Assembly: GCA_034440615.1 (NCBI GenBank)
Contig: JAOTOM010005125.1
Coordinates: 268,001 to 332,000, forward strand
Direction: 5' to 3'
Length of the DNA stretch: 64,000 bases
Source of the DNA: Ashinkailepas kermadecensis
Taxonomy: Eukaryota > Arthropoda > Thecostraca > Neolepadidae
Shown: positions 15,734 to 34,210 of the stretch, in pieces
Numbering within the stretch: the first letter of the stretch is position 1
Layout of the letters: each line of letters opens with the position of its first letter
The notes under the pieces: generated by a model
Told to the model about the DNA's origin: nothing
What the model saw: only the letters and a program-made list of their open reading frames with translations
Databases searched by the model: none
Position numbers and translations under genes: made by a program

Positions 15734-15889
15734 CCGTGTATGGAGTTGTGACCCCGCTGTCCGTCTCAGTCCGTGTATGGAGCTGTTGTGACTCCGCTGT
15801 CCGTCCCAGTTTGTGTATGGAGCTGTTGTGACCCCGCTGTCCGACCCAGGCCGTGTATGGAGCTGTTGTGACCCCGCTGTCTGTGCCAG
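15734..15889 (+). repeat. 40-bp tandem array carrying copies of the INTS3 exon start and acceptor
   Basis: Units of 38-40 bp start at 15734, 15771, 15811 and 15851, and a fifth starts at 15891 inside the exon. Each reads approximately CCGTGTATGGAGCTGTTGTG then ACCCCGCTGTCCGTCCCAGG. They therefore repeat the polypyrimidine tract, the AG and the first 10-13 exon bases of the genuine junction at 15889/15890. Several units could serve as alternative acceptors. Confidence 0.85.
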
Positions 15890-16355
15890 GCCATGTATGG
15901 AGCTGGTGCGGCCGCTGCTGCAGCGGACAGCTGAACAGCCACACGACGTGTTCGTGGCGTCCGTGCTGAAGTACTGGTCCACCGAATACGAGGAGCAGAC
16001 GGCGCAGCTGATAGCCAACCTCATCAACCGCACCAGTCTGACGCCGAGCAAGCGGCGGCGGAACTCGCCTCGCGCCAACTTGCCAACCACCGAGCAGATC
16101 CTGGGTCACCTGGACCAGATGCGCGCCGTGCTGCGCACCGCCTCATTCTGGAGCATAGACGAGGTGCAGACGGCACTGAGTGTGGCACAGAGCGGCTCAA
16201 ACGAGGCACAGCGCAAGCGGTTCGCCGATCTGTTCGCGCTGATCGAAGTGGAAGAGGAAGCGCGCACGCGGCGCGGCCGCAAGGCGGCGGCTCGCGGCCG
16301 CGCCACCACCAAGAACATACAGAAGACGGAGACTGACTCTGACGTCTCGACTGAG
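15890..16355 (+). CDS. INTS3: Integrator complex subunit 3, penultimate coding exon
   Basis: INTS3 is a scaffold subunit of the nuclear Integrator complex, which processes snRNA 3' ends and attenuates transcription. It is also the core of the SOSS single-stranded DNA sensor. The exon encodes about 155 residues: the end of the helical repeat region (ELVRPLLQ, DVFVASVLKYWS), then SPSKRRR-like basic text (TPSKRRRNSP), then EQILGHLDQMR and RKRFADLFALIEVEEE. An Arg/Lys-rich tail follows. These last blocks are characteristic of the INTS3 C-terminal domain as I know the family. The acceptor CTGTGCCAG|G (15889) gives a one-base start; an acceptor in an upstream array unit, or CTGCTGCAG at about 15920, is possible. 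The donor is GAG|GTCAGT, phase 0. Upstream exons are not in the window. Confidence 0.85.
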
Positions 16356-17226
16356 GTCAGTGGTGGCTGTGCGGTGGCGACGTTGCCGCGGTGTTCTCAT
16401 TGGATTATGGTGTCCTGTTGGTGGTGTTCGGAGAGCTCGCCCGCAGCTGGGTGTACCGTTTTTCGTCGCAGACACAGGGTGTCTATCGACCTGTTGCCAT
16501 TTGGTGATCGCTCGCGCTGGCGATGGACTGAGACAGCGGCACATGTCTCAGGAGCATTCTTTTCGTGAGGGGAAGGTATATCATCCTGAGCGCAGGTGGT
16601 TGTTCGGATAGTAAACGGAACAAGTATCCCGGCCGGGTGATACTTTGATTGTTAGAGCCCATCGGCTTATGGTGACGACGCGTGTTTCTGGATGTTTCGG
16701 TGTTTCCCATCGTGCGTGTATTAGCTGGCGATGACTGCGACGGGCAACTATCCCCCCCCCGGCTGGTTGTTCGTCCATCGACAAGGGTGCGTTGCTATCG
16801 CGAGGTGTTGGCCGGCTGATCCGCCATTGAGTACCTCTGCTGCCTTGTTCTGCCTCGGGCGACGCCGATGGCGACTGTGCGGTAGAAAATCGCCGCCTCG
16901 TGGCATGAGTGATCCAGCTAATCGGTTTTCCGCGGTCGAAGTTCATGTTTTCGAGCACCGTAATTACGCGAAATTATTGCGTGGGCACTGTTCTTGTTCT
17001 CCTTACGATTGACACACGAGTATCTCCGCCGCAGCGTTACGTCTATTCTGCGGCATCGAGATTGCATCGCCTGGATTGCCGTCCCCTTTCGTTGGCTTGC
17101 GTGTCGGTCGTCTGGCTTTGCTAGGCGTTTGTTCTGCATCACTGGTGGTGTCCTTCAGACCGAGGTTGCCGATCGACACGGCCGCCCAGCATCTGCACTC
17201 GAATGACTGTCTGCCCTGTGTTGCAG
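16356..17226 (+). other. INTS3 last intron
   Basis: The donor is GTCAGT and the acceptor TGTGTTGCAG. Phase 0 on both sides lets the two coding exons join in frame. The interior is GC-moderate and has no recognised repeat or coding feature; a poly-C run of nine lies at 16753-16761. Confidence 0.8.
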
Positions 17227-17298
17227 GACGAGGAAGTCATCAAGAAGCCGGCCAAGAGGAGACGACGGAACAACCAGCTCAACTCAGACAGCGACTGA
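17227..17298 (+). CDS. INTS3: Integrator complex subunit 3, terminal coding exon
   Basis: A 24-codon exon that reads DEEVIKKPAKRRRRNN then QLNSDSD and stops at TGA 17296-17298. The acidic start, lysine/arginine patch and SDSD terminus match the acidic-basic tail expected at the INTS3 C-terminus. That tail was shown for family members to contact other Integrator or SOSS partners (general knowledge). Phase 0 agrees with the donor at 16355. No AATAAA was found in the next 300 bp, so the polyadenylation site is not placed; retroposons start at 17552. Confidence 0.85.
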   Translation, partial: DEEVIKKPAKRRRRNNQLNSDSD

Positions 17299-17551
17299 CG
17301 CTAACCTGTGATGTACTGAACGGTTGCAGCGCGAGTGACGTGCAGTGCACACATCGAGTGTGCGGTGCGCCAGTGGTGTGTTTTACGGCAACAGTGAACG
17401 CAGGTTTTGCGGAAGTGTTTTAATATATGCATTCGATGTACCTGTGGACCAGTGTGTGGCTCCTGCTCGCATTCTCAAGAGTGTGGTTGTGTACGCATTA
17501 AGAGCAGGCGCGACATATATCAAATTACAACTGTCACCTGTATTGGCGTGA

Positions 17552-17795: not shown

Positions 17796-17808
17796 TGTAT
17801 CGGCGTGA

Positions 17809-19336
17809 CGAAATGTGTCGTTGCGATATTCGATTTAAAACCTGCAAACGACAGCGGAGCATGCGCTTGGTAGGTTTAGGGTGATTGGTGTGCAAGTGTT
17901 TGGCTTCTCGAAGAAACGCAAGTAAGACAGCGTAAGTTCTTTACCTCGAAGCGCACATACGAACAGCTCAGTTGATGAGTTTCATTCAGCAAAGGTGGTA
18001 TTTTGCAGTTTTCTTCCATGCCAATCAGAGTACGGACCCAGCGAGTCTTGCCCGTGTATATGCGTGGGGAGGTTCATCCGGATGACTGCATCCGATTCCT
18101 ACCCGATCGTCCTTCTTTTGGAACCGCATTCACTGCTTTTTTAGGCGTTTTAGGTCCTTCTTTCCTCACCCAGAACACTTAATTAAACTTACTTTTGATA
18201 CCTGGTTTTTGGTAACTGGCATCAAAATATCATCCTTAGTGAACGCATTATCGCCCCAACAAAAGATACTCCAGACAGCATTTCTGGCGCCCATGCAATG
18301 CGCCACACCTCGCTACGTTCGTGACCTATATTGTAACCCGGAATGTTTTTTTTACAGGTGTCGCCGAGATGGGACAGTTGCCGTTGGTCCACAAGTGCTC
18401 TACCAATAACGGTATGATACTGATCACGTGTCTGCGTCACGGGCACACCAAAGCTGCGTTCATACTCCCGGTACACTTGCCTCTAGTGTCATCTTGTATC
18501 GTTAATATCCTTTGTGAAACTAGTAGCTCTCTTGCCTCTAGAACGGTAGCACGACATAAATGCTAAGAGCAAAGCTGCTACAAAACTACAACCGGCATTA
18601 CTTCCGACGCAAAAAAAAAAACAAATCAAACTTCAATTTCAAGCGACAAGACTGCTGATCCGAGGAGCTATACGCGACACCTTAAACTGCGCCACACAAC
18701 ATGTACGTGGCATTATGTGTAAAACAAAAACTTCAGCGAGCCTCGCTTCCAAACGACGCCTCCTAATAACAGCCCGCGAGCTTCGTGAAACTATATGCCC
18801 GGAAAGACGAGGACCAAAAGTTGAGAGTTCATGATGAAAGGCAATCCAAATATATTAAGTTACAGGAACGTTTCATTTCGGCATATTCCAATTATGGTCA
18901 GTGGCTACAAGTACCAAGAAAAGTTCAGCACATCTTAATGTGCCCGCATCCATGGTTTCGTACATACAGCTTTGTTGGCGAATCCTCTCACCGTAAAACA
19001 GTAATACTAATATACAATAAAACATTCAAACCAGCGCATGCAAATGTAGCCACATTTGACCTATCACAAATCAGCACGTGAAGAACGGGCCAGAGGCTCC
19101 AATTCGCCATTTCGCTCATAATCACATGCATAGTCAGTACTCCACTCCATAAAGGTTCTCTCGGGGAGAAAAGCATTCGGCTTGCGATTAGCGAGTTAGG
19201 CCTTTTCAGGCGGAGGCGGCATCATCTGCCGATTTGGACGGCAGCGTAGTGCTCTATGTTCGTGCCCCGTCATATTCCAGCTGGGAAAGGCGGCGAGACG
19301 TCATCTGCTGGCTGGGGACGGCGGAGGTACCGTCTG
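17809..19336. other. Intergenic region between INTS3 and the CTC1-like gene
   Basis: The two genes converge here. I see no additional exon, RNA gene or clear mobile element; short AT-rich tracts and a poly-A run near 18610 are present. The 3' UTRs of both genes must end in this interval. Confidence 0.5.
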
Positions 19337-19428
19337 CTAGTGTGCCGGCTGGGTCGGGAACAGCTGCTCCACCAGAGCCGGAGGCGCCGACATGACAGCC
19401 TCGCAAAACACCGACTTGACCGGCCCGC
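19337..19428 (-). CDS. CTC1: CTC1-like gene, exon 11 (terminal coding exon)
   Basis: The acceptor is CCACTGTCCAG|GCGGGCC. Two bases complete the glycine codon opened by exon 10, then 29 residues run through PVKSVFCEAVMSAPPAL and end in FPTQPAH before TAG at 19337-19339. Phase agreement with exon 10 (one base left over, two supplied) is the main support. I do not recognise the tail by itself; it is assigned to the CTC1-like gene because it is the only open continuation. A different frame of the same stretch runs past the TAG, but it does not match the upstream phase. Confidence 0.6.
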
Positions 19429-19930
19429 CTGGACAGTGGATATCGCAACGTCACACCCATGCGCACTCGCGTCTCGGTACGCACCCAGGAAATTATTTCA
19501 GAGGGGTGAAACCTACGTAACAAAATCCAAGTAGACAATAGCACACAATGAATGCCACTCCCCACACCCACAGACATCCAGATCCCGACACCGTAAACCT
19601 ACGTGTCACTGTACAGAAGGAACAAGAACTCCGTATTTAGGCATAGAAAGGCCAGATCATAAAAATGAGTGAATGCGACATGAAGAAAAAGAAGCTCCAT
19701 GCTGTCGCCACCGCCAGGTGCCTTATGTCAGAGAACATGGTGTTTTACAAACCTGCCAGGGACAGGACTTAAGTTAGGAATTACCTATTTAATAAAATAA
19801 GAATAATAGAATAAGCAAATAAAGGAATAGTAAAATCGCGTGAAATCCGTCCGCTAAAATTAAATTTACATTTTCCACTAACTGGTGAGAAATGACAGAC
19901 CACCTGTTACGTCATACGGCGGACCGCGAC

Positions 19931-20025
19931 ATGTACCGTACCTGCGGCACCCTCCAACACGGCCCAATGGGCAACTGGACCCCGACATGTACCGTACCTG
20001 CGGCACCCTCCGGCGCTGTCACGTC
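19931..20025 (-). repeat. 56-bp duplication of the exon 10 donor
   Basis: The block ATGTACCGTACCTGCGGCAC followed by CCTCC occurs at 19931 and again at 19987. On the minus strand it is the last bases of exon 10 plus the GTACGG donor. The genuine exon therefore has a second complete donor copy 56 bp downstream in its intron. Confidence 0.85.
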
Positions 20026-20115
20026 GAACTTCTTCAGTTCGCAGATAATTGGGCGTCGGATGCTGGGCGCCTGACACAGCGAGCCCAGCAGGTCGGTGGA
20101 AGGCGCTTTTTTGTT
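19998..20115 (-). CDS. CTC1: CTC1-like gene, exon 10
   Basis: The acceptor is CCCGTATTCCGCAG|AACAAA and the donor GCCGCAG|GTACGG. The 118 bp give 39 codons plus one base, phase 0 in and phase 1 out. It reads through STDLLGSLCQAPSIRRP and IICELKKFDVTAPEGAA. This has the alternating hydrophobic pattern of a final OB-fold helix and strand. It joins in frame to exon 9 (phase 0) and exon 11. A second frame is open across the exon, but only this one satisfies both neighbours. Confidence 0.68.
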
Positions 20116-20144
20116 CTGCGGAATACGGGATCTGAGAGGCAGGG

Positions 20145-21030
20145 TCAGGTTGTCACAGCCACCCCTGGCACACGGAGCGGCAGTCAGGTGGTCAGAGCCA
20201 CCCCGTCAAACGGAGCGGAAGTGCCAGGTTGTCACAGCCACCTCGTCAGACGGAGCGGCAGGGTCAGGTTGTCACAGCCACCCCGTCAGACGGAGCGACA
20301 GGGTCAGGTTGTCACAGCCACCCCGTCAGACGGAGCGGCAGGGTCAGGTTGTCACAGCCACCCCGTCAGACGGAGCGGAAGTGCCAGGTTGTCACAGCCA
20401 CCCCTGTCAGACGGAGCGGCAGTCAGGTAGTCAGAGCCACCCCTGTCAGACGGAGCGACAGTCAGGTTGTCACAGCCACCCCGTCAGACGGAGCGGCAGT
20501 CAGGTGGTCAGAGCCACCCCTGTCAGACGGAGCGGCAGTCAGGTTGTCACAGCCACCCCGTCAGACGGAGCGGCAGTCAGGTGGTCAGAACCACCCCTGT
20601 CAGACGGAGCGGCAGTCAGGTTGTCACAGCCACCCCGTCAGACGGAGCGGCAGGGTCAGGTTGTCGCAGCCACCCCGTCAGACGGAGCGACAGGGTCAGG
20701 TTGTCACAGCCACCCCGTCAGACGGAGCGGAAGTGCCAGGTTGTCACAGCCACCCCTGTCAGATGGAGCGACAGGGTCAGGTTGTCACAGCCACCCCGTC
20801 AGACGGAGCGGCAGGGTCAGGTTGTCACAGCCACCTCGTCAGACGGAGCGGCAGGGTCAGGTTGTCACAGCCACCCCGTCAGACGGAGCGGAAGTGCCAG
20901 GTTGTCACAGCCACCCCTGTAAGACGGAGCGACAGGGTCAGGTTGTCACAGCCACCCCTGTCATACGGAGCGGCAGGGTCAGGCTGTCACAGCCACCCCT
21001 GTCAGATGAAGCGGCAGTCAGGTGGCTATT
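20145..21030. repeat. 40-bp minisatellite filling the exon 9-10 intron
   Basis: About 22 copies of a 39-40 bp unit, GGGTCAGGTTGTCACAGCCA then CCCCGTCAGACGGAGCGGCA. A 39-bp variant has GTCAGGTGGTCAGAGCCACC. The array ends 25-30 bp before the exon 10 acceptor. Because many units keep an open frame, it produces plus-strand frames of more than 300 residues that are not proteins. No unique spacers are present, so it is not a CRISPR. Confidence 0.95.
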
Positions 21031-21408
21031 ACGTCACTGGTCGCCCCCGGTGTAGTCGGATGGGGCTGCTTCAGGACTCGACGTTCAATAATAAGGCGCT
21101 TCGTCACTTCATTGGAGAAAGCAACATAAACAAAGCGTTGTGCAATACCAGAGTTTCCAACCCATCGACAAGCACGCATACAAGGCTGCTTCTATAGACG
21201 TCTCAATCAGCTCGATAGCTAGTGCTAGAAAATTACCCTTAAAAATTGCACACAACCCAGCGCAAAACTAGCCTGACTACGTAGATTGACCGGCGGCCAG
21301 GTCAATCTCTGTGAGGCCGGCAAGCAATGTTTGATTGGCTGCCAGCTGGTGTCTGTCTAACCGACCGGTCTCGATGTTTGGCCATCGTCTAAGTGGGGAG
21401 TAGAGTAC

Positions 21409-21559
21409 CTGCCGCGGCTGGATGTGGTATATCTCGCCGTGCCGCCCGGCCTCGGCCGTCAACATCTGCCATTGGTCGGCAGTAGCGTCCAGCAACTGGC
21501 GAACACTGTCGCCCACCAAGTGCGCCGCCACCACTGCGGTACCGTCGTCCAGCATCACC
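21409..21559 (-). CDS. CTC1: CTC1-like gene, exon 9 (OB-fold strand pair after the zinc ribbon)
   Basis: The acceptor is CACCTGTCTACAG|GGTGATG and the donor CCGCGGCAG|GTACTC. One base completes the arginine codon of exon 8, then 50 residues begin VMLDDGTAVVAAHLVGDSVRQLL, where the hydrophobic-DDGTA-hydrophobic pattern is typical of an OB-fold strand 3 region following a zinc ribbon. The segment WQMLTAEAGRHG and IYHIQPRQ follow. If the donor is ignored, the frame runs on to a stop at 21277. I prefer splicing because exon 10 is phase-compatible and coding-like. Confidence 0.7.
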
Positions 21560-22020
21560 CTGTAGACAGGTGAGTGACGTCATGCAGCATCACGCTGCAG
21601 ACAGGTGAGTGACGTCATGCAGCATCACCCTGCAGACAGATGAGTGACGTCGTCCAGCATCACCCTATAGACAGGTGAGTGACGTCACCCAGCGCCACCA
21701 TGTAGACAGGTGAGTGACGTCATCCAACACCACCCTGCAGACAGGTAGGTAGTAATCCAGCGCCACCCTATAGACAGGTGAGTGACGTCACCCTGTTACA
21801 GACAGGTGAGTCCAGCACCATCCTGCAGACAGGCGAGTACCATCATCCAGCACCATCCTGTAGACAGGCGAGCAACGTCATTCGACACCATCCTGTATAC
21901 AGGCGAGCAACGTCATTTAACACCACCCTGTAGACAGGCGAGCACCATCATCCAGCACCATCCTGTAGACAGGCGAGTAACGTCATTCAACACCATCCTG
22001 TAGACGGGACACTGTCGTCA
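21550..22020 (-). repeat. 35-38 bp array repeating the exon 9 acceptor
   Basis: About 13 copies of a unit that on the plus strand reads CAGCACCACCCTGTAGACAGGTGAGTGACGTCATC in imperfect form. On the minus strand each copy carries CACCTGTCTRCAG followed by GGTGRTGCTG, i.e. the acceptor with its tract plus the first exon 9 bases. Copies decay with distance from the exon. The first copy overlaps the exon itself. Confidence 0.9.
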
Positions 22021-22305
22021 TCCAGCACAACGTCATACGATGGACAGTCTCACCGATCAGCACCATCCATTAGAAAGTCTCATCCATCCTGTTATCAAAC
22101 GTCACCCTGTACACGGGAAAGAGGAGACATCCTAGCTCGCGCAATCAATTGTCTAAAATCCAGTTTGAGCCCGAGCGCGTAAACGGAAATGAATTCTTGA
22201 AAAAGTAGCGTGAGAGTAAATTAATTCTAAATTAATTAATTATAAAATTAATTAATTAACTTACAAAAGGCATTCATTCCCCTCAACCCAGCAAGCAGCA
22301 TTAGC

Positions 22306-22348
22306 GTGGGGGGCTTTAGGGCGCTTCGACCAGAATTGATCATTCGCG
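22306..22348 (-). mobile_element. Short stem-loop retroposon (tail-poor copy)
   Basis: A minus-strand copy: GGGCTTTAGGGCGCTTCGAC then CAGAATTGATCATTCGCG. It is flanked by AGCAGCATTAGC (22294-22305) and AGCAGCATAAGC (22349-22360), a 12-bp duplication with one change. The tail is nearly absent, so insertion may not need a long tail. A closely similar variant (TTCGACCAGAGTTGATCATT) is at 41.0 kb. Confidence 0.75.
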
Positions 22349-22360
22349 AGCAGCATAAGC

Positions 22361-23149
22361 TTGTTGGCCATGCACGTCTATACAGGATGGTCTACTCTTC
22401 TTCATGACGTGGCATGATTAGTGAAACACTGGGCAGGATAATAATGGTCAGTAAGGGAATGGATTTGGTGGTGGTGGCCTGAACTTACTGCATGTGCCAT
22501 TTTTAATGACGAGGAGTGGGTAATGATTCGCTGTGGTGCCGCTTTCCATCCGATTTAAGTAACTTCGGGACAATGCGCGCAATACTGCGGGTACTTTTAT
22601 CCACAGTGATCTTTCTGCACCAGTAGTCACAGTAACTTAGTCCAGAATTTCACATTTTCAGTACCTGTTGCTAATTAAACTTCGATGGTCATAGATCAAA
22701 ACCGGGTCCATAATTGTGCATATTTACATTATAGTCATGGAGGCGTGCGTCGCCTCAGCGACAGCGCTGTAGCACCAGACTGGTGACGTCGCGACGTACG
22801 CAGCACCCGCACGATCTGTTTGTTGGGCACAGTAAAGCAGTCCCCGGCGCCGGCGACCACAGACACAATATATATGGTTTAAGACGATGTACCTGATCTG
22901 ACAAACCGGAATTGACGTAAGAACGGATTGAGATGGTGAAGTACCGTGTGACGTAGTTGGTCACTTAGAGGGCAGAACGATGAATGAGCAACTTTCGGGA
23001 TAATGTAGATGTCCCATACCAAACTATAGACGGTTCGGAAGTCTCAACCGGGTGACATTGCCCAGAGGTGGTAAACCAGTCTCCAGACTGGTGTACTGTT
23101 GCGGCCGCCAGCCCCACGACAATTAATCATCAAAGCGGCAAAGACCGGC
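22361..23149. other. CTC1-like intron 8, unassigned part
   Basis: A cysteine-rich open frame at 22755-22870 on the minus strand was examined as an exon and rejected (see rejected list). Nothing else is supported here. Confidence 0.45.
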
Positions 23150-23216
23150 AGTTAACTGGCCTGGGCAGCGACGGTCAGAGGCTACCTGACGCGGGTAGCG
23201 ACGATCGGGAATTACC
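23150..23216 (-). repeat. About 30-bp imperfect repeats of the exon 8 donor
   Basis: On the minus strand the sequence GTCACTGCCCGCGCCAG|GTAATT at the true donor is followed by GTCGCTACCCGCGTCAG|GTAGCC and GTCGCTGCCCAG|GCCAG. The exon end and donor are therefore copied twice more at about 30-bp spacing, with decay. Confidence 0.7.
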
Positions 23217-23425
23217 TGGCGCGGGCAGTGACGGTCGACTGCCGCTGACCTCGACAGCCGACGAAGGTGCAGACCCCGGCCGTCACATTGCGCTGACAGA
23301 GCGGGCAAACGGCCGACAGAGACGCCCGACACAGGTCCATCACACAGGCCAGCGTTACCCAGCGGGACAGCGTTGGCTCCGACAGGGCGGCGCACAACAG
23401 CTGCAGGGGCAGGTGTAGCCGGGGT
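23216..23425 (-). CDS. CTC1: CTC1-like gene, exon 8 (zinc ribbon)
   Basis: The acceptor is AATGTTGACAG|ACCCCGG and the donor GCGCCAG|GTAATT. One base completes the arginine of exon 7, followed by 69 codons and two leftover bases. The sequence includes LQLLCAALSEPTLSRW and the ribbon CPLCQRNVTAGVCTFVGC, a C-x2-C-x8-C-x4-C arrangement. It leads through exon 9 into the DDGTA OB strand. A zinc ribbon inserted in an OB-fold is known for CTC1 and RPA1; the long multi-OB context and lack of RPA1-like DNA-binding domains favour CTC1. A later acceptor (CCCCTGCAG, 9 codons in) would break the phase. Confidence 0.7.
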
Positions 23426-23487
23426 CTGTCAACATTTACAGACCCAACACAACACGGTCAGTTCGGGTCAGTAAACAGTTGTGGAAG

Positions 23488-23525
23488 GGACAGCTATCGA
23501 CATAATGGCATGTCGATAGCTGTCC
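23488..23525. other. Perfect 15-bp hairpin in intron 7
   Basis: GGACAGCTATCGACA at 23488-23502 is the exact reverse complement of TGTCGATAGCTGTCC at 23511-23525, with an 8-base loop. The stem is short for a miRNA precursor and has no obvious flanking continuation. Its role is unknown. Confidence 0.85.
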
Positions 23526-23714
23526 AGTGTTAAAATAGTGGTTTTTCGTTCGGTGTGAGATGTCTAATCGAATACAGTTTGATGTACAAATTCGTACTGA
23601 AAATGCCATTTTCAAATACCCCGTATGGCTTCGACGCTCAGTTTTAAGCCGATGGCGTACCTGTAAGGATATCTTTTCCCTTTTCACACATACCTATTTA
23701 TGAATAGGTACCTA

Positions 23715-24004
23715 TGTTAACGACCACAATCAAAATACAAATACGATAAACTGGTATTGAACAATAGACCACATCATAGGTAATTACTTTACTCGGAATT
23801 GTGTTAGGAGATATTTATGTTTTACAATCCACAATGTTAAGCGGAAGCATAATGTGTTAAGCACATGACATACTGGTACAAATGAGACATATCAATTTCA
23901 TAGACACACATGAAGAAGAATGATGACAATACATCTTTGGAAAAGATGTTGATTGCGTGTTCAGAAAGTGGTGTATTCCGCCCTATTTCAGGGATAATTT
24001 ATCA
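23715..24004. repeat. About 290-bp dispersed repeat, copy 1
   Basis: This aligns with 28180-28475. The shared blocks are TAAACTGRTATTG, CATCATAGGTA, GTGTTCAG then AAGTGGT, and the common right end AATTTATCAC. Both copies lie in introns of the CTC1-like gene in the same orientation. No coding capacity or terminal repeats were seen. Confidence 0.65.
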
Positions 24005-24097
24005 CAGCCTGTACAACCGGCACGCTACTACCAGTGTCGGAGTTCGAGCGCCACAGCCACAGGTAAAATCATGGTCATCGGATGAGTCATTAGGATG

Positions 24098-24260
24098 GTT
24101 GGTTGGTTATTGGTTTTACGACACGTGGATCGTTGAGTCATATAGCGTCGCCAATCTCTCACGCCGATTGGTCGCGGGCGAAGAGTAGCGACAGGTGAGA
24201 TTCGAACCCACAATCTTTCGATTGTGAGACGAGCATCTAACCCCTAGACCACTCGTCCCC
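24098..24260 (-). mobile_element. tRNA-derived SINE (family S1), intron copy
   Basis: A minus-strand copy of the S1 SINE: the reversed tail GTTGGTTGGTTATTGG, the body, the B box as GAGATTCGAACCCAC and the head at CTAGACCACTCGTCCCC. It is flanked by a perfect 14-bp duplication GAGTCATTAGGATG (24084-24097 and 24261-24274). It lies in intron 7 of the CTC1-like gene, in the same orientation as the gene. Confidence 0.92.
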
Positions 24261-24767
24261 GAGTCATTAGGATGAAGATTACGGTCAGGGCCAGGGTCAA
24301 GGTAATATTAAAAATTAATTTCCGGGTCAGGGGCGCCAGTTCTCGGTCTGTCCAGCCGCAGATAGAAGCCAGGATCGGTTAGACCATGCGTCATAGCTTC
24401 GTGTAGACAACAGCCTGGTTACGATAGACTTACAAAAATCATCCCTTCGGGTACCGGTAATCTACAGGGAAATATGAGCTACTGTCATGGCAGCACGTCA
24501 TTCTGAGCTGATGATGCACAATACCTGACATACCACAACCCACCGCATCAACAAGAGACGAGGTCCACGAGTCAGAGACCAATAGCCCATCTGCTCACCT
24601 AGCATGTAGACCACCTCCACTCGCTCGGCAAGACACTTGTGCCGGCAACGTCTCTGTTCCCACTCCATTCAAACCAATCCCAATTTTTTGTAATCAATTT
24701 TGGCGGGACCTAGCGGCGTTAGTCCACACAAGCAGTTTATAATCCGGTGGCCTCAACTCCCGCTGAC

Positions 24768-25005: not shown

Positions 25006-25170
25006 CTGACGAACGACGGCAGCTGTGTCATACGCAGCACCACCCTGTAGGTGTCTGACGGGCGACGAAAGGTATGCTACTCACACAGCACCACATTGTG
25101 GGTATTCAGCGGGCGACGAGAGGTTTGTCGCTCACAGCACCACCATATTCGTGTCTGACGGAGGATGAGT
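25006..25170 (-). repeat. About 50-bp array repeating the exon 7 acceptor
   Basis: Copies of CAGCACCACCYTGTRGGTGT followed by CTGACGGGCGACGA start at 24986 (in the exon), 25035, 25086 and 25135. On the minus strand each carries TCGTCAGACACC, i.e. the acceptor AG and the following exon bases. Further decayed copies (GCATTACCTTGTGGGTGTCAG) reappear at 25610-25720 beyond a CA-rich stretch. Confidence 0.85.
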
Positions 25171-25189
25171 AGTGTGCTACACGAACAGC

Positions 25190-25750
25190 ACATACACCTA
25201 CACACACACACACACACATCTACACCTACAGCACCAGCTTGTGGATGTCACACACGCACGCACGCACGAACGCACACACACAGTTACTATGTCCAAATTT
25301 GGAAATTTGTGTTGGAAGCAACACATAGCAGGACAATTAATTAAATCTGAAGTCAGACATTTTACTTTTGTTCACATGTTGCATATGTCTACATCAATGC
25401 ACCAAAGAGATGGGTGTTTGGTGATTAACCCCACCAGCATGAATGATCTCAAATTGCCACCGACTGGTTTTAAGGCGATGGTGGGCTGCATGTAGACCTA
25501 GCATCATGCAATACAGTTACATACAAGACGCATGATGTACCATTCGACATCTTAGTTACATCTTTAAATACGGGTGACGAGATGGGTGTCACACACACGC
25601 ACACACACCTAGCATTACCTTGTGGGTGTCAGACGGGTGACGAGATAGGTGTCACACACGCGCGCGCACACACGCACGCACACACCTAGCATTACCTTGT
25701 GGGTGTCAGACGGGTGACGTGATGGGTGTCACACACACACATCACCACAT
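25190..25750. repeat. CA-rich microsatellites with decayed acceptor-array units
   Basis: CACACA runs occur at 25198-25222, 25250-25280, 25590-25607 and 25650-25685. Between them is about 280 bp without a recognisable feature. At 25600-25735 are two or three more GCATTACCTTGTGGGTGTCA units related to the exon 7 acceptor array. Confidence 0.75.
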
Positions 25751-26256
25751 TGGTGCTGTGTGTGACATCGGTCACGTCCTAAAAGCTCACGATACCATTA
25801 GTTTACGATACCGTTTAGTTTACCTATGTTGAACCTATAAACTCACGTTTCCATTATTTATTGGGTGGTTCACGACGCACTTTATGCACGATCACGGCTA
25901 ATGATGCCGTCCACCCTGTTTCGCCGGCGGGCCACGGGATTGGGAAATGTCCAAAGTGGTGCGAATGTTGTAAATCCACGTTTCGACAACGCTTTCTTCA
26001 ACTATCCTGACAAAGGCGTTAGCGGAACGTGGGAACAATGAGGAAAGGAACTTGTTTGGACTTTTTGGGTTCCACTATCTTTAATTTAAGCACACATGTC
26101 CGTATTAACTAACATATGCAATCTACAACTTTTGTAGGAAACGCATCGCGCGTTTCTTTACGTCTGACCACCATATGAGAGTAAATTTGGCTCCACTGTG
26201 CCCAGGCCAGCCAATATTGGACACCGCACCAGGCAGCGGCCGGCCACGAATACCCC

Positions 26257-26575
26257 GACGGTAACTCACTGAGGCTGAGCGGCGCCGGCCCGCGGTATCG
26301 GACAGCCAGCCACCGACACCCCGACGGTAACTCACTGAGGCTGAGCGGCGCCGGCCCGCGGTATCGGACAGACAGCCACCGACACCCCGACGGTAACTCA
26401 CTGAGGCTGAGCGGCGCCGGCCCGCGGTATCGGACAGCCAGCCACCGACACCCCGACGGTAACTCACTGAGGCTGAGCGGCGCCGGTCCGCGGTATCGGA
26501 CAGCCAGCCACCGACACCCCGACGGTTACTCACTGAGGCTGAGCGGCGCCGGCCCGCGGTATCGGACGAATCTGT
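26257..26575 (-). repeat. 66-bp array of the exon 6 end plus donor, five copies
   Basis: Near-identical units start at 26257, 26323, 26389, 26455 and 26521, exactly 66 bp apart. The unit reads GACGGTAACTCACTGAGGCT then GAGCGGCGCCGGCCCGCGGT and continues to CACCCC. On the minus strand each unit contains the last 40 bases of exon 6 and a complete donor (CCTCA|GTGAGTTACC). The last unit is the real exon edge. A 22-residue periodic frame across the array is a by-product of the unit being a multiple of three. Confidence 0.95.
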
Positions 26576-26631
26576 CGCGCGCGTGGGTCCGCTCCAGAAT
26601 CACGCCGCGAACGGTCAGCAGCAGGTTATCG
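26534..26631 (-). CDS. CTC1: CTC1-like gene, exon 6
   Basis: The acceptor is CAGCCTATCGCAG|CGATAAC and the donor AGCCTCA|GTGAGT. One base, 32 codons and one base; the frame reads DNLLLTVRGVILERTHARD and RYRGPAPLSL. LLLTVRGVILER is a typical first OB-fold strand. Phase fits exon 5 (AG plus C gives serine) and exon 7 (A plus AC gives asparagine). Four extra copies of its 3' edge follow in the intron. Confidence 0.7.
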
Positions 26632-26639
26632 CTGCGATA

Positions 26640-28179
26640 GGCTGTCAACTCACCGACGCTGTGCGGCAAACACGCGAGGCTAGGTTAAGTCACCAGCACT
26701 GCGATGGAAACACGTCGGTTCACTCACACCATCACGGGTGCCAGTCAGGTCAAATGAAGTGACTCTACTAACTAGCACTGCCACTCATGATCGGGTCACC
26801 GACCCGACTTTCTCAGATTGCCACGCTTCTGATACCTTAATAATCTGCTATGAAAAGACGAATTGTCTTCGATGAAAATTACACACACTCGTAAAATTAT
26901 TTTTAACTAAATTTATAAATTTATTTTGAAGTAATTGCGTTAAATGTTCAATGGAAGGGTTCATAGGGTACCTCCCACAAAACCCTTTACTCGTGTTGTG
27001 CCACTTTTCCGTGATACATTTGTCTCCAGTAATCTTTAAAAGATGGGAACAGCGCTTGGTCAACAAGCTTTCTTCCGAAAACGGTGTTTTGCCTGGCTGC
27101 GTCCACAGCGTAAGTGGTGTTCTGTAATTAGCTAATAATACGGATTCAGTTGGAAACCCTTCGCGCACCGGACACAATTGGTGCGCCCCCAGAGCCCTGG
27201 TCGGTGCTCCCATGCGGACGCGATAAGTAGCACGTTGACGCTAGTGCGCGGTACGTTCACACCGATACGTAGACGAAAAACTGCCGCGTGCATGAGAAAG
27301 GAAGGAAAAGAGAGAAAACACTCATTTACAATGAAGGCCGCGACCATCGACCAGATGCGCCACATTTATCGCTAGCAGTTCTTGATTTTCACCTTCATTG
27401 CTACCAGATTTTGCTACCAAATGATTAAATAAATACAGATATTTGTTACCTCCAAAGAAAGCACCATATTTGTCGTAATGAAGAGCTGTCCCTAAATTGG
27501 CTTCCGTTTTTCAAAGAAAAATGGGTGAGAAAACTTGAATGTGATTATTTCGCTACTTTAACACCAAAGTGGAAGCTAAGGCACTTTTTCAGTGATTTTA
27601 TAACTGAAAACATTTTTATCTTCAGGTGTTTTAACTTTAGTACTTGTTTTATATAACATTAGTACGTATTTTCTAGTGTTTTAACTTAAGCTTGGTTTAA
27701 CTTGTTAATCTTTAGGTCTTTTATCTTTTATCTTTTAACATTTTTATCATTTTTATCTAGAAAGGATCGAAATGTTTAGTGTTCTTTGCTTTAGTTTTCT
27801 TTCTTCTGTTCATAAATATACCTGTTAACCAATCGATGCAAGGCATTGTTGGTATGACGACGCAAAAAGTTAGAAATTGTATTACACATTGAGCACACGG
27901 CCACATGAGTTTTGGCACACAAAAGTTTTGCTGTCGAGTTGTCTGCATTGCAGTATAAATTTGTGCTATTTTGATTGCATTGCAGCATTTTGATAGCTGT
28001 CTGTGCTTGCACGTGTGGCTACAGTAGTGGAACTGGTGAGTGATAGTTTTTTGTGCACTGCGCTTGGTGTGCTTTTTCCCAAGAGTTGGTACACCCGTGA
28101 GCCTTTTTGGCTTTTTTAGACAATTGCGTACATACCACTGTTCCCGCTACGCGTGATTTGAGAGGTACCTAATTTGAGG
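26640..28179. other. CTC1-like intron 5, unassigned part
   Basis: Several medium-length frames on both strands around 26850-27380 overlap one another and show no recognisable domain. An AT-rich tract with repeated GTTTTAACTT motifs runs 27595-27760. No feature can be supported. Confidence 0.4.
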
Positions 28180-28475
28180 ACGCCGATATCAACGATAACG
28201 ATACAAACACCTATGCTATAAACTGATATTGTATACCATAGGACATCATAGGTATTCCCTTCACCTGGAAATGCGCTATGGAATGTCTGTTATGACGACC
28301 CCGGATCCGTTTTAGTGAGCATTAGCATGATACTTGTAAACGGAATACAGTTAGAAACGAGGAATAAATACTTCACAAACATGCGCCAAGAAGCACGATG
28401 TCGATATTCTTTTGGGATGAATGTCGACTCAGTGTTCAGTAAGTGGTACATTCCACCCTACTTCGCGAATAATTT
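28180..28475. repeat. About 290-bp dispersed repeat, copy 2
   Basis: This aligns with 23715-24004 and has the same right end AATTTATCAC. It is interrupted by several indels and abuts the exon 5 donor array at about 28490. Confidence 0.6.
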
Positions 28476-28489
28476 ATCACTGGTGTGAC

Positions 28490-28608
28490 GTCACAGTATT
28501 ATGGTGCCGCCGTGGTGCGCGGGTGTGATGTCACAGTACCATGATTCCGCCGTGGTGCGCGGGTGTGACATCACAGCACCGTGGTGCGCGAGTGTGACGT
28601 CACTGTAC
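28490..28608 (-). repeat. 35-45 bp array of exon 5 donor-flanking sequence
   Basis: Three to four copies of CCGTGGTGCGCGGGTGTGAY followed by GTCACAGTAC. On the minus strand each carries GTAC(A/T)GTGACRTCACAC, the first intron bases after the exon 5 donor. Here the duplicated segment is mostly intronic. The copies contain TGACGTCA, a CRE-like palindrome, which I regard as incidental. Confidence 0.8.
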
Positions 28609-28686
28609 CTGAGCGCCTCGGTCGTGTGCGGGAGAAACGTCGGCGACGGGTCGACGCGCGGTACCAACTGAAGGTCGTTCGGGGCG
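28609..28686 (-). CDS. CTC1: CTC1-like gene, exon 5 (acceptor uncertain)
   Basis: The donor is GCGCTCAG|GTACAG. The frame APNDLQLVPRVDPSPTFLP then HTTEAL is open. The strongest acceptor by eye, CTTTCCACAG at 28701, would give a phase-0 start that clashes with exon 4, which leaves two bases. The weaker GTGCTGAG|CGCC at 28687 restores the phase and makes the whole gene divisible by three. Either a short exon lies undetected between exons 4 and 5, or the weaker acceptor is used. Confidence 0.5.
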
Positions 28687-28700
28687 CTCAGCACCGCACA

Positions 28701-29405
28701 CTGTGGAAAGCATGAGACGAGTCTTTCTGGTAGACCGCAATTCCCTTGTCTGTGGACACACAGAGTAGTTTACTGCATCATCACCATTGATTAAAATGGC
28801 AAACACATGTCTCTCCAACAGATTGAACACATTGGAGTTAAATGAGCACATATAACTTATCACACATATAACTACCATGGCTTTGCAAATAACCCTGCTA
28901 AAACCGAACCTTTGAAAGCTACTGCTCAAATCTCACAGGAGAAATTGACATAAGAAGCCGGAAAACTGTCTAGCAGCTGACAGTTGTCCTTCGGTTTTAA
29001 TAAGAACATGATTGGCCTGCTAACAGAAGTTGCGAGACATCAACAGTTAACTACAGCATACGCACACATTACACATTGAGCACATCGGCATGTAGCGCAG
29101 CCGCTGTTGGGCAGCATAGTATCGTATGCCACTTAACCCAGTGATCATTTGTAAACATAGTCACTATCGTTGCGTAACAAATGTCCCTTCATTCCCACTT
29201 GCATTCTATCCTAACAGACAATAACATAATTAAAGAAACATCACACATCTATCGGGCTATCGCCATCAAGCAGCGTTGGACCAATGGCAAACACCCACCG
29301 CCCCAATGTCCACCAATTAGCACCGTGCTGTAACTCGACAGAAACGAGCGGCGTCCTTGATTGGCGGCCGTATCAGGCGCTCGGTACCAGGCTACTCAGA
29401 CTCAC
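28701..29405. other. CTC1-like intron 4
   Basis: No repeat or RNA gene is recognised. If the strong CTTTCCACAG acceptor of exon 5 is the real one, a small phase-changing exon should be hidden here. Confidence 0.4.
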
Positions 29406-29995
29406 CGCCTGGCTGTCCAGAGCCGGTCCGACGAGAGCAGGGCATATGAAGCGGCCGGCTGGAGGTTGCCCGCCAGTCTGACCGCGTTCCCGGACAGCAG
29501 CAGCAGGACGGGACGACTGCAGCCCGCCTCCTGCAGCAGGCCATGCAGCCAGCGACGAGTACCGCCGGGGCTGGCCCGCGGTGCACTGCTCTGGTACAGC
29601 AGCAGCCGCGGCGCATCCGGCAGCGGCTCCTGCTGCTGCTGCTGCTCACACGCCTGTGGCCTCGCCTGCAGCCGAGTGGCGGCCTGCCGGTGCGTCATCA
29701 GGTAGTGGAGGGGTGGCGCCGCCGGCAGCTGCTCCCACACGACGGTCGGTCGCAACAGACTCACCAGCCCGTCCAGCCCCTCGGTGGTGGCCGGTCCGCC
29801 CAGCAGCAGCAGCGGCACCGAGGTAGCGCCCGCGCTCAGCCGCCAGCCGCCGCTGGCGTCCCGGCCCAGCACGGCCACCAGTCGCCGCTCGGTTGTCGCT
29901 GCGCCGTGCCGCCACCTGTTTACCGACTCCGGCACGTCGGGCTCGCCCGTCGACAGAACGTCCGGCAGACGATGCAGCTCGAACGGCGGCTCGAA
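29406..29995 (-). CDS. CTC1: CTC1-like gene, exon 4 (largest exon)
   Basis: The acceptor is CGCTCCACCTCAG|TTCGAG and the donor GCCAGGCG|GTGAGT. 196 codons plus two bases, phase 0 in. The frame begins FEPPFELHRLPDVL and includes ERRLVAVLGRDASGG, VPLLLLGGPATTEGLDGLV and a run of five glutamines (GCTGCTGCTGCTGCT on the plus strand). It ends through RPVLLLLSGNAVRLAG and SYALLSSDRLW. The alternating hydrophobic pattern fits two OB-folds separated by a Gln-rich linker. GC content is far above the flanking introns. I do not recognise a specific motif in this exon; assignment to CTC1 rests on the downstream exons. Confidence 0.68.
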
Positions 29996-30334
29996 CTGAG
30001 GTGGAGCGTACCGCGCAAGTCATACGGGCCGCAGGGGGATGGAATGTCGCAACTGCATGGAGTGCCACTGCCGCACGGGTGAAGAGCATGCGGGACATTA
30101 TTCGAGTTAACATCATTCATCATCAAAGGATGATTCAAGATCATTATGATTGAGATGCATTGATGAACTGCTAGTAGTAAGCTTCTTGTTGCTGATTACC
30201 TTCATGTAAATAACTCGTCTCGAATGGGGCACGGTTGGAGCAACACCCTTGTGCTTGATATTCATCACTCAGAACGCCAGAAAATTGTGCTCTCCTTTAT
30301 TTTGCTGAACGGTTGAATGGTGTTGCTCGACAAT

Positions 30335-30392
30335 GGGCGCTCTATAACCAATGCAGTTGATGCGCCCTAAAACCATAATAACCAACCAACGA
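30335..30392 (+). mobile_element. Short stem-loop retroposon
   Basis: GGGCGCTCTATAACCAATGC through GCGCCCTAAAACCATAATAACCAACCAAC, a complete 58-bp insertion flanked by a perfect 14-bp duplication TGTTGCTCGACAAT (30321-30334 and 30393-30406). It lies in intron 3 of the CTC1-like gene. Confidence 0.93.
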
Positions 30393-30810
30393 TGTTGCTC
30401 GACAATAAAACGGAGGACTGTTTGCTCTTCGATACAAAATGTCTAACCCTGCGGGTTATTACACTTGGGCTTCCATTTCAACAGTAGTGCATTGCACTGC
30501 AGTACACTGCAGTTGGCGGCTGGCGAAATAACACTAGGTTTACATCACATATTGATGGATGTCTTGATCCACCTGTTATTCCTCATCCGTTATGCTGAGA
30601 TTATAAATGTCAACAAAGCATCCCAAGTCTAGACGAGAAAAGTGGTTTCCAATATCAAAATTTAAAACAAAACTATCCTCTCCCACTCTGATGAACTCCT
30701 AGTTATTAACACTCCAAATGCAGGATTACCGCATTCAAATCCAATGTTCGTCCGAGCCGACTGTTCGTGGCTCCAGGCTGTTCGGTTCCGGTCCCGATCA
30801 GCGGTATTAC

Positions 30811-30937
30811 CTGGACGGAGGTGACGCATCGGTGGGGTGTGCAGGCGAATTCTCTCACTAAGCCGCGCTCAACGCCCCGGTAGCCGGTGGTTCGCAGCAG
30901 CTGGAAGACGGCGCTCTTCTCACCGTCCAGCGGCACC
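30811..30937 (-). CDS. CTC1: CTC1-like gene, exon 3
   Basis: The acceptor is GCGGGTGTCTCAG|GGTGCCG and the donor CGTCCAG|GTAATA. One base completes threonine from exon 2, then 42 codons, phase 0 out: VPLDGEKSAVFQLLRTTG and ERGLVREFACTPHRCVTSVQ. Both splice sites are strong and both neighbours fit in phase. No domain can be named from this piece alone. Confidence 0.66.
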
Positions 30938-31358
30938 CTGAGACACCCGCCAGACGGACGTCAACAGCAGCACACGCTGGCACAACTCTAGTGGTGGTGG
31001 TGTCCTGCGGCTTAGGTGCGCTTCGACCACGCGGGACAACTGTCACTCAACACACATTAGCAGAGCTCACCGGGATAACTCTACCCAAACAAACCTCACA
31101 CAACAGAGTATAATGTGGGAAAATACAAGCATATACCAGGGAACGGTGCACACTGGGAGAACTCTCACAACATATCCAGAATGTGGTTATATTTCATATG
31201 ACTGTTAGGACAAATCCCGACGGTTAAATAGTTCGCCGGCCGCCGTCGCAACCTCGACGTATCAATGGCTTCCAAGGACATTGCAATACCAGAGGTTTCC
31301 TGATGCAGCTCACATCAAACCCCATATACTCTCTGTTCCAACTCTTACAGATGCTCGC

Positions 31359-31564
31359 GGGCGGGGATGGCCGAGTGGTTAAGATGTTGGGCTCTGGGTG
31401 CCAAAGGTACCGGGTTCGACACTCGCACCGCTCGGGACATTTCCCAACCCCGCGGCCCACCGGCGAAGCAGTATGGGCGACGCCATTAGCCGTGAATGTG
31501 CATAAAGTGCGTCGTGCGTCGTGTCATAAAGTGCGTTTCTTCATTCACCCAATGAACAAACTGG
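31359..31564 (+). mobile_element. tRNA-derived SINE, second family (S2)
   Basis: The head GGCGGGGATGGCCGAGTGGT has an A box (TGGCCGAGTGG), and the B box is GGGTTCGACACTC near 31412; together they resemble a tRNA-Ser/Leu-type head. The body includes GCATAAAGTGCGTCGTGCGT with a partial repeat of ATAAAGTGCGT, and it ends near CACCCAATGAACAAACTGG. An 11-bp duplication CAGATGCTCGC flanks it (31348-31358 and 31565-31575). It has no AACC tail, so it probably uses a different LINE. Confidence 0.82.
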
Positions 31565-31717
31565 CAGATGCTCGCCGGGGACAGCAATCGCACAGTGCGA
31601 GGGCGACACCAGTTTCACATCCGGGGAAGGGGCAGCAGAGTGACTGAGTAGTGGGACTGTGGTGCTGCTCCAGCCACCGTCCAGCAGCAGCAGGGTGGCA
31701 CCAATCGAGTGTGATGT

Positions 31718-32130
31718 GGTCGGTACTCATATGGTGACGCTGTATGATGCAGCGGTACTCACGTGGTGTCGGCAGCGGCGAGTATGATGTGGTCGGTACT
31801 CATATGGTGACGCTGTGTGGTGCAGTGGTACTACTCACGTGGTGTCGGCAGCGGCGAGTGTGATGTGGTCGGTACTCATATGGTGACGCTGTGTGGTGCA
31901 GCGGTACTCACGTGGTGTCGGCAGCGGCGAGTGTGGTGTGGTCGGTACTCATATGGTGACGCTGTGTGGTGCAGTGGTACTCACGTGGTGTCGGCAGCGG
32001 CGAGTGTGATGTGGTCGGTACTCGTATGGTGACGCTGTGTGGTGCAGCGGTACTCACGTGGTGTCGGCAGCGGCGAGTGTGATGTGGTCGGTACTTATAT
32101 GGTGACGCTGTGTGGTGCAGCGGTACTCAC
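31718..32130 (-). repeat. 73-bp array of the exon 2 end plus donor, six copies
   Basis: TACTCACGTGGTGTCGGCAG occurs at 31756, 31832, 31905, 31978, 32051 and 32124, i.e. every 73 bp (one interval 76). On the minus strand each unit has the exon 2 end GCTGCCGACACCAC followed by the donor GTGAGTA. Six intact donors therefore lie in a row; the last is the genuine exon edge. A second internal GGTACTCATATGGTG resembles a decayed half-unit. Confidence 0.95.
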
Positions 32131-32262
32131 GTGGTGTCGGCAGCGGCGAGCGCCACCAGATCGGTGGTGCGACGGTACCAGTCAGCAGCCGACGGAGGCA
32201 TGGAAAAAGTGTGGAACGTATGCACGGCTGTATCGAGATGCGACACGGACGCAGTCAGTTCC
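32131..32262 (-). CDS. CTC1: CTC1-like gene, exon 2
   Basis: The acceptor is GATGTCTGTTTCAG|GGAACTG and the donor GACACCAC|GTGAGT. One base completes arginine of exon 1, then 43 codons and two bases: ELTASVSHLDTAVHTFHTF, SMPPSAADWYRRTTDLVAL. Splice sites are strong, and the phase fits exons 1 and 3. The segment is not recognisable alone. Confidence 0.67.
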
Positions 32263-32479
32263 CTGAAACAGACATCAGACAAGCGTGTCAGGTCTGGGTC
32301 ACTTCTACCCCCCCTCCCGCTTTCGCTCTCTCCCTCTTCCTCGCTCCCGACCTTGTTCTCTATATCCTGCTCTATCGCTCTCAAAACTCGCTCTCGCAAC
32401 AAGATCATCGTGAACAAAGCATACTGATATGACACTGGATGTCCATGAGCTGCACCGAACAGCACTGCAAATATTTGAC

Positions 32480-32760
32480 GCCTTCGAAAATAGCGAATCA
32501 CACCGTCGTGGCCTTCTTCTATCACTTCAGGATCTATCATCGGATATCATGGGCGGCTGCCTTTGCGAAGATCACGCGACTGGGCGTCCCTGATTGTGCA
32601 ATCCGTTGGGCCAAGGTCATTCTATCGTAGTACCGTGCTCGGGTGCGCGAGGTGCAACTCTCAAAGGTCCAGAGTATTTCAAATCGACAGGGATCCGCTT
32701 GGCCCTTTTTTAGACCAGTTAACTCTTACCCCGTTCGCTCTGCCTTGGTGGTGGTGCTGA
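32480..32760 (+). pseudogene. Reverse-transcriptase relic (CR1/Jockey-type fragment)
   Basis: The plus-strand translation AKITRLGVPDCAIRWAK, then YRARVREVQLSK and a shifted RDPLGPFLDQL, resembles the RT fingers-palm stretch L-G-V-P-x-x-x-I-R-W ... R-V ... G-P-L-L-F. It has an internal stop and at least one frameshift. It lies in intron 1 of the CTC1-like gene, antisense to it, and differs from LINE families A and B. It is short, so the call is tentative. Confidence 0.45.
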
Positions 32761-33805
32761 AATGGTAAATGTGATTGGAAGACGTTCGGAGCTAATTGTT
32801 TAGTTGGTCTTCCGCGTCACTTCGCCAACAAGATTCTCCGATACAAATGCGACATCCGGGGTGACCATGCCGCGGGCAGCAGGACTTTCTTGTGTGAGGG
32901 TGCCGTCCTGCACGCAGGTGAAGCGCAAAGTGGTGGCCCGATCGTCCATCTAATGTCCGAATATATCCTGCTGTCGTGGAACCCACACATTTATTATTAT
33001 CGTGACATCGTGCTTCCACGATTGAGAGGGCTTGGTGCACGCAGCAGGGACATCTCCGCCTGTCGCGAGTGTGCTACGGGTGTGGCAATCGGCTGGGAAC
33101 AAATTCTTCCCTCACAACCGTAATGACGCCTTTTGTCTTCTCTTGATCGGCATATGCCCATCTTTTGGTAGTGGATAGTTATAATCATGTTATTGGTTAC
33201 GAACACCTAAAACCTCCTATATTTAGCTGAATGCATAGTTCACGTCAATGCTGCTCGCATTACAAGCCTATTCGGTGGATTCCCTGGGACACTTGCTTTC
33301 TGAGACATTCTTACCTAAGTCTTCATCAGGTTATGATAAAGCCAAAACTTGAGGGAGCATTAACGTTAAAAGCAGAAATGACAAGTTAACAGTATTTCAA
33401 TACCCCAATGTCACCAGCCGTCGTAATTGTGTAACATAGGTAGAGCACAACTCGTACTTGATACTGCGGCTCCTGTCGGTCTCAAATGCGTGACACTGGA
33501 TCACATCCTCGAGCTGCATCTCTGCCTCCATGCAAGTTCATGATCACATGGATGTAGGCTGCCACAAGGATGCAATGCTGTTTTAATGCTCAACAAAATG
33601 ATACGATCAGCCCGTACGTGTATCCCAACACGTTTTGCACAATACTTGACTCCACTCTAGTCAGCATGCGCACACCCCTCCTACACACATCATTCCCCAC
33701 ATGAATCCCACCTGACTTCACCTGGTCAGTACCACCCCCCCACCCCACCCCACCCGCCCATCTTGAACTCGCACCCACCTGCAGCCGGTTAGTACCGGGA
33801 CCTAC
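32761..33805. other. CTC1-like intron 1, unassigned part
   Basis: A plus-strand frame at 32890-33123 has no recognisable domain. The stretch 33660-33790 is C-rich (CCACCCCACCCCACCC). Nothing else is supported. Confidence 0.4.
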
Positions 33806-34008
33806 CTGTTGAGCACCTCCACCCAAGTGCAGGCGCACGCTGTCAACCGACGCTGGGCCGACGTCCAGTGGACGTTAAACACGACGACATTATCCCCGAC
33901 CAGCAATTGCGGACAGCTGGTCACTCCAGAGATGGCCGTCAGTAGCAGCTGGACGTCGTTGTTCAGTTGGAACAGCTGCAGCGATGAGTCCGCCGATGTC
34001 ACCACACC
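33806..34008 (-). CDS. CTC1: CTC1-like gene, exon 1 of those visible
   Basis: The acceptor is GATGCGTCCGTCTCAG|GGTGTG and the donor CTCAACAG|GTAGGT. It has 67 codons plus two bases and opens in phase 0, so at least one coding exon lies further upstream. The frame GVVTSADSSLQLFQLNND, LLLTAISGVTSCPQLLVGDNV and VFNVHWTSAQRR shows OB-fold-like alternation, with an L-x-G-D-x-V-x-x-x-N-V block similar to the P-G-D-x-V turns of telomere OB-folds. Family CTC1 proteins are about 1100-1200 residues; the visible exons give 678, so about 450 N-terminal residues are unaccounted for. Confidence 0.65.
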
Positions 34009-34210
34009 CTGAGACGGACGCATCACTGTCAGAGGCTGTCGGCATGCCTAGGTACGGAGCATCATTGTCAGAGACTGTCATCGTGCCGGAGTGTCACTCT
34101 CAAAGGCTGTCGCCGTGCCTTGAGATGAGCCGTCACTCAGGGTCTCCAAATCCATTTTCGCCGTGCCTTGAGATGAGCCGTCACTCAGGGTCTCCAAATC
34201 CATTTCGAGC
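34009..34210 (-). repeat. 43-49 bp repeats at the exon 1 acceptor
   Basis: Three diverged copies of CATCACTGTCAGAGGCTGTC then GGCATGCC (34020, 34063, 34098), followed by two near-identical 49-bp copies of GCCTTGAGATGAGCCGTCAC then TCAGGGTCTCC (34117 and 34166). CCTTGAGATG-CGTCACT resembles CCCTGAGACGGACGCATCACT at the true acceptor, so the units probably derive from that junction. Confidence 0.65.

Follow-up and report, generated by a model that had tools for sequence, protein, structure and literature searches.

Why should the minisatellites of one locus so often meet the ends of exons? The question is raised by 64,000 nucleotides of the Ashinkailepas kermadecensis genome (assembly GCA_034440615.1, contig JAOTOM010005125.1, positions 268,001 to 332,000), hereafter the window, which carries the last two exons of INTS3 on its plus strand and a gene that we call CTC1-like on its minus strand (exons E1 to E11). 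An earlier description of this DNA, the original prediction, had listed nine junctions in the two genes at which a tandem array appeared to contain the exon edge, its splice signal or both, and had proposed that such duplication is general, ongoing and a possible route of intron gain. We find arrays whose units cross the junction at seven exon ends, an excess of repeat clusters at exon ends, and further cases in other genes. We consider it probable (about 0.68) that the arrays are 'mirage'-type minisatellites, seeded at exon borders rich in guanine and cytosine (GC) and able to grow only into the intron. GC content and tolerance of duplication explain the preference for junctions only in part.

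We compared the edge of each exon (60 nt of exon and 12 nt of intron) with the adjacent intron-side sequence, for 24 exon ends. Junction-crossing copies are present at seven of these: the donors of E2, E6, E8 and E10, and the acceptors of E7, E9 and the penultimate INTS3 exon (Table 1). Arrays in the window therefore hit both kinds of site, four donors and three acceptors, and the CTC1-like gene alone has spanning copies at 6 of its 20 junctions. All seven had been claimed, with units close to those of Table 1 (35-38 bp in the case of E9), and at each the unit carries both the exon edge and the splice signal. The other two of the nine claims fared less well. An array does lie at the E5 donor, but only the intron side repeats, the recurring part being the first intron bases. 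At the supposed E1 acceptor, for which a unit of 43-49 bp had been proposed, no copy crosses the exon edge; an in-frame ATG at 34024 gives a plain start, and exon 1 may begin there.

The exon share of a spanning array, taken at its longest, is ~12-34 nt across the window and the other loci described below. The splice dinucleotide is present in most copies: GT in 11 of the 12 intronic donor copies (E2, E6, E8, E10) and AG in 14 of the 18 scorable acceptor copies (E9, E7, INTS3). Copies are near-identical at E2 and E6 and carry copy-specific differences at E9, INTS3, E7 and E8; E8 (three copies in the spanning search) and E10 (two copies) are small arrays. Two arrays were absent from the original list. 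One is the 40-bp array before the E10 acceptor, whose unit has no exon sequence, and the other is the 77-bp array upstream of E7, which holds two copies of the E7 acceptor region (88% over 25 bp).

Two details of these arrays stand apart. The exon-nearest copy of the E6 donor array alone has an in-frame TAA right after the donor (26526-26528), where the others have TTA, so reading through from exon 6 would stop translation. At the INTS3 acceptor array, a repeat-family copy at 15519-15740 (also found at 11636 and 14364) breaks off at ~15726, where the array starts.

Table 1 Arrays and exons in the window (positions are those of the window)
Feature	Position	Strand	Description
INTS3 acceptor array	15727..15905	+	40-bp unit, ~4.6 copies; covers acceptor and ~19-28 nt of exon (Tandem Repeats Finder, spanning copies)
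E2 donor array	31706..32150	-	73-bp unit, 6 copies; 20 nt of exon and donor
E5 donor array	28482..28608	-	40-bp unit; repeats only on intron side of donor, no spanning copy
E6 donor array	26252..26567	-	66-bp unit, ~5 copies; 34 nt of exon and donor
E7 acceptor copies	24984..25200	-	~50-bp spacing, diverged; ~22 nt of exon
77-bp array with diverged E7 acceptor-region copies	25592..25736	-	>580 bp from exon
E8 donor array	23163..23236	-	30-bp unit, ~2.5 copies; 21 nt of exon and donor
E9 acceptor array	21543..22068	-	35-bp unit, at least 12 copies; 17-24 nt of exon and acceptor
Array near E10 acceptor	20134..21018	-	40-bp unit, 22 copies; ends 18 bp before acceptor
E10 donor duplication	19931..20011	-	56-bp spacing, 2 copies; 14 nt of exon and donor
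Repeats 5' of exon 1	34055..34205	-	32 and 48 bp; cross no exon edge
INTS3 penultimate exon	15890..16355	+	PF24566, PDB INTS3; donor GT at 16356
INTS3 last exon	17227..17298	+	no array at its acceptor
CTC1-like gene, 11 exons	19336..34024	-	frame-consistent splice model; weak PF15489 match
CTC1-like exons E1-E4	34008 or 34024-33806, 32262-32131, 30937-30811, 29995-29406	-	
CTC1-like exons E5-E8	28749-28609, 26658-26534, 25005-24768, 23425-23216	-	
CTC1-like exons E9-E11	21559-21409, 20115-19998, 19428-19336	-	

A naive point test places 8 of the 24 exon ends in repeat-positive sequence, which covers 20% of the CTC1-like gene. Given that arrays are long, this test is too weak, and we therefore used tests based on clusters, confined to those of the CTC1-like gene (INTS3, INTS3-exon and intergenic clusters stand outside both sets described here). 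A self-alignment scan blind to exons, with its threshold set at 33 (the 99.9% level reached by shuffled flanks), found 11 repeat clusters, 9 of which touch an exon end when a blur of up to ~20 bp is allowed. Of these nine, one meets exon 1 at its doubtful 5' end, and the units of two others (E10 acceptor and E5 donor) contain no exon sequence. When clusters could reach no more than 30 or 65 bp into exons, 0.80-3.15 touching clusters were expected across the versions with and without GC limits (P 2e-9 to 4e-4); wholly free placement gave 3.6-5.8 (P 6e-4 to 0.04). With a looser threshold of 27, 9 of 15 clusters touch, compared with 1.0-4.0 expected under the exon-limited nulls (P 1e-7 to 7e-3) and 4.1-6.8 under free placement (P 4e-3 to 0.17); a pair of clusters within exon 4 was left out of this set, whose first 11 clusters keep their threshold-33 boundaries. 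None of the counted clusters reaches more than 55 bp into an exon, blur included. These results support the earlier claim that the arrangement is too regular for random minisatellites, most clearly so when compared with nulls that bar arrays from exons.

These counts depend on the exon models. The window is animal DNA with a mean GC content of ~49% and pieces of retrotransposons. The identity of INTS3 is certain from its Pfam match (PF24566, E 1.3e-29), and a query extended upstream aligns with the PDB INTS3 from residue 33 onwards, which is the codon lying at the acceptor. Scanning viral contigs with the INTS3 exon gave no confirmed match. The exon model of the minus-strand gene was drawn by eye from the sequence alone, and frame, splice dinucleotides and composition agree with it: a single frame of 708 codons runs over the 11 exons, and every intron is GT-AG and in phase. 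The name 'CTC1-like' is reasonable but not proven, since the matches of its C-terminal piece (exons 8-11) to Pfam CTC1 (E 1.7e-5, 23 bits, under the 27.8 cut-off) and to Pfam CDC24 OB3 (E 5.9e-4) both fall under the curated cut-offs. The whole protein found no homologue in a large protein set (8000 candidates scored) and none in PDB, where one thymidine kinase appeared at E 1; a match to a Pfam toxin-peptide family (E 0.6 and 0.016) is under that family's cut-off, and we attribute it to chance.

Beyond the window, we sampled 300 kb of the same assembly as 30 stretches of 10 kb (given L-labels). This sample is minisatellite-rich, with 106 arrays of period at least 20, and GC content ranges from 0.37 to 0.61 over 29 sampled loci. 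Ab initio exon chaining hit 13 of the 21 known minus-strand junctions exactly but had too little power for 10-kb pieces, and coding segments were used instead, found without masking arrays by a codon model trained on the window's two genes. An array within 25 bp of a segment end was scored as adjoining it; 3 of the 106 arrays, at least 1500 bp long, were excluded, as were segments lying mostly in arrays and those of fewer than 20 amino acids. At a coding threshold of 12, 9 of 103 arrays adjoin the end of a coding segment, compared with 2.0 expected at random (p 0.0005) and 3.5 with flank-GC matching (p 0.001). At a threshold of 10, the count is 11, compared with 3.1 (p 0.0005) and 4.8 (p 0.0035), respectively; at 15 it is 6, compared with 1.7 (p 0.005) and 3.0 (p 0.064). 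The nine adjoining arrays are spread over six stretches, with five of them on L028 and L029 of one contig.

We also examined 11 junctions elsewhere that were hand-picked for arrays beside their genes, so that the share of positives among them does not estimate a frequency. Spanning units are clear at four (three acceptors and one less certain donor), weak at one and absent at six. The acceptors belong to a glycerol-kinase-like gene (L015:6386, unit of 61 bp), whose alignment reaches 12 nt from the acceptor, within the repeated unit, and to a GALK2-like gene (L020:4261, unit of 45 bp with nine copies listed, and L020:5717, unit of 47 bp). The GALK2-like exon edges are consistent with how N-acetylgalactosamine kinase (PDB 2a2c) aligns; spliced together, the pair aligns unbroken at E 3.4e-25, and its exon B alone found no match. 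The donor (L029:2596, unit of 31 bp) is not fixed by homology, and the acceptor of the same exon has weak copies only. This gene, which we take to be ACAP-like, has Pfam ankyrin repeats in the segment adjacent to the exon and no Pfam match in the exon itself. We conclude that junction-spanning repeats recur across genes, although not at every junction, and the evidence does not make them the source of most arrays. The claim that the phenomenon is general thus holds in part: three homology-supported junctions in two other genes, one less certain junction and the excess in the 300 kb speak for it, but six of the 11 hand-picked junctions were negative.

How might such arrays form? Exons here have a GC content of 0.666, non-array intron sequence 0.472 and the spanning arrays 0.55-0.71. 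Since the exons are GC-rich, like the arrays, and the introns around them richer in AT, we reasoned that exon borders would be the main GC-rich seeds that tolerate duplication. A tandem duplication would arise across the exon-intron border, by replication slippage or the repair of staggered breaks, with unequal exchange later. Copies within the exon would be removed by selection, and copies would build up on the intron side only, because the outermost splice site would still define the exon and purifying selection would keep a single exon copy. The extra donors and acceptors would become intronic decoys. Use of the exon-proximal site is predicted by this scheme, and the continuous 708-codon frame obtained with such sites lends it indirect support. 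Only the near-identical copies at E2 and E6 suggest that duplication may be ongoing, as had been proposed.

Several observations weigh against this explanation. GC seeding and exon avoidance together predict at most 3.15 touching clusters where 9 of 11 were found, about a third of the nine, and at the looser threshold 4.04 where 9 of 15 were found, under half. At 12 of the 20 junctions of the CTC1-like gene, no copy spans the junction and no array abuts it. In the genome sample, the excess at a coding threshold of 15 gives p 0.064 once flank GC is matched, and 94 of 103 arrays have no coding-segment end nearby (threshold 12, with incomplete exon detection). A gene with HCO3-transporter exons lies on L003, a stretch with a single array, and no array adjoins those of its exons that were recognised. 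Finally, donor-like and acceptor-like motifs are not enriched in array units compared with shuffled units (p 0.92 and 0.32), among the 63 of 106 genome units that are 25-120 bp long. The part of the junction excess left over may be a small-sample excess or a real extra preference.

A rival explanation is a process that targets junctions, linked to transcription, R-loops or spliceosome-bound nascent RNA, and duplicates border DNA beyond what GC content and selection predict. Such a process would fit the shortfall of the GC- and exon-limited nulls just described, and the genomic association that survives flank-GC matching at thresholds 10 and 12. However, the samples are small, a single gene is fully modelled, the matched association weakens at threshold 15, minisatellites are also common off recognised exons (for example, at 11147-11607 and 12974-13862), and array units at large lack splice-motif enrichment; we regard a junction-targeted process as unlikely. 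Also unlikely is the broader proposal that an active duplication process favours exon-intron borders genome-wide, outside cephalochordates, and keeps supplying duplicated splice sites by which introns lengthen, alternative splicing is fed and, now and then, new introns arise.

Alternatively, these could be the ordinary minisatellites of a repeat-rich genome that merely halt at exons, with no true preference for borders. The background is high (106 arrays in 300 kb), and free landing with GC limits brings P to only 0.04 for 9 of 11 clusters and up to 0.17 for 9 of 15. If arrays landed freely, however, they would cut across exons, and none of the counted clusters does so; nulls with exon avoidance give P values from 2e-9 to 7e-3 at the two thresholds, and the unmatched genome sample gives p 0.0005-0.005. 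Moreover, the units include exon sequence instead of halting at the exon. We consider this explanation improbable.

Of the 13416 intron bases examined, 2763 belong to arrays, indicating that introns lengthen by this route, as the original prediction had suggested. Its further suggestion, a route of intron gain, is not supported: when the two ends of each intron were compared (40 nt either side), none of ten introns had ends alike above the 95% shuffle level. It is accordingly very improbable that these introns were created by tandem duplication of segments bearing splice sites (the gain proposed by Rogers), even though the repeat units do bear splice signals and published accounts describe such gain in potato RdRp and suggest it for globins of amphioxus and for Drosophila; besides their dissimilar ends, the CTC1-like introns (0.57-1.95 kb) are mostly non-array. 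An assembly or sequencing artefact is hardly credible either, for although the E2 and E6 copies are almost identical and our reading is drawn from the assembly alone, the E9, INTS3, E7 and E8 arrays have copy-specific differences and spanning units recur on separate contigs.

The window and the sampled stretches contain other repeats and one irregular exon. Similar elements lie in opposite orientation at 17600-17780 (plus strand) and 24095-24280 (minus strand), with a head that is tRNA-like by eye; ARAGORN calls a tRNA-Val at 24185-24260, and the elements look like tRNA-derived short interspersed nuclear elements. The sequences at 11147-11607 and 12974-13862 are long diverged arrays with periods of 16 bp and 20 bp, in repeat-rich DNA off recognised exons. 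A short five-base array of TTAGG and TTATG type is present at 14269-14350. TTAGG is the arthropod telomere motif; no perfect run of four TTAGG or three TTAGGG was found in the 364 kb searched. Together with the base composition of the sampled loci, this array hints mildly at a source other than amphioxus. On L004, about three fifths of the 10-kb stretch (1-6367) is GC-rich tandem repeat, mainly of 105- and 221-bp units. On L012, an exon that is presumably cyclin-Y-like seemingly shifts its reading frame inside the exon (5820-5830), by sequencing error, variant or decayed copy.

In a search of open-licence papers, minisatellites that span junctions were nowhere reported as a feature of a whole genome; there are, however, related systems. 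Human segmental duplications contain variable internal tandem repeats, with units of ~30 bp on average, some of them at exon-intron boundaries. The human repeats occur in young paralogues; half lie within coding exons, and they can form introns, whereas here the exons stay in frame. In potato RdRp, and in the Rogers model, the duplicated segment likewise crosses an intron-exon boundary and bears splice signals; unlike that case, no new intron is evident here, and the intron ends are unrelated. The closest parallel is in amphioxus, where 'mirages' are described in Adh3, the globins BflGb6 and BflGb9, TnC and PGBD5. Their units measure 10-72 bp in Adh3 and ~150-160 bp in the globins, many copies have AG/GT signals, and regular splicing is kept. 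Judged by unit structure, the arrays described here are the same phenomenon: in both, a tandem unit crosses the exon-intron boundary, and donors and acceptors are both affected. They differ in that the arrays here hit 6 of 20 junctions of a single gene, in that recurrence has been put to the test against nulls over 300 kb, and in that ours are known from sequence alone. In the papers searched, mirages are reported from no more than a handful of amphioxus genes. A genome with mirages in several unrelated conserved genes would give a direct measure of how exon borders seed minisatellites, of how splicing copes with rows of near-identical decoys, and of whether duplicated splice sites ever become introns.

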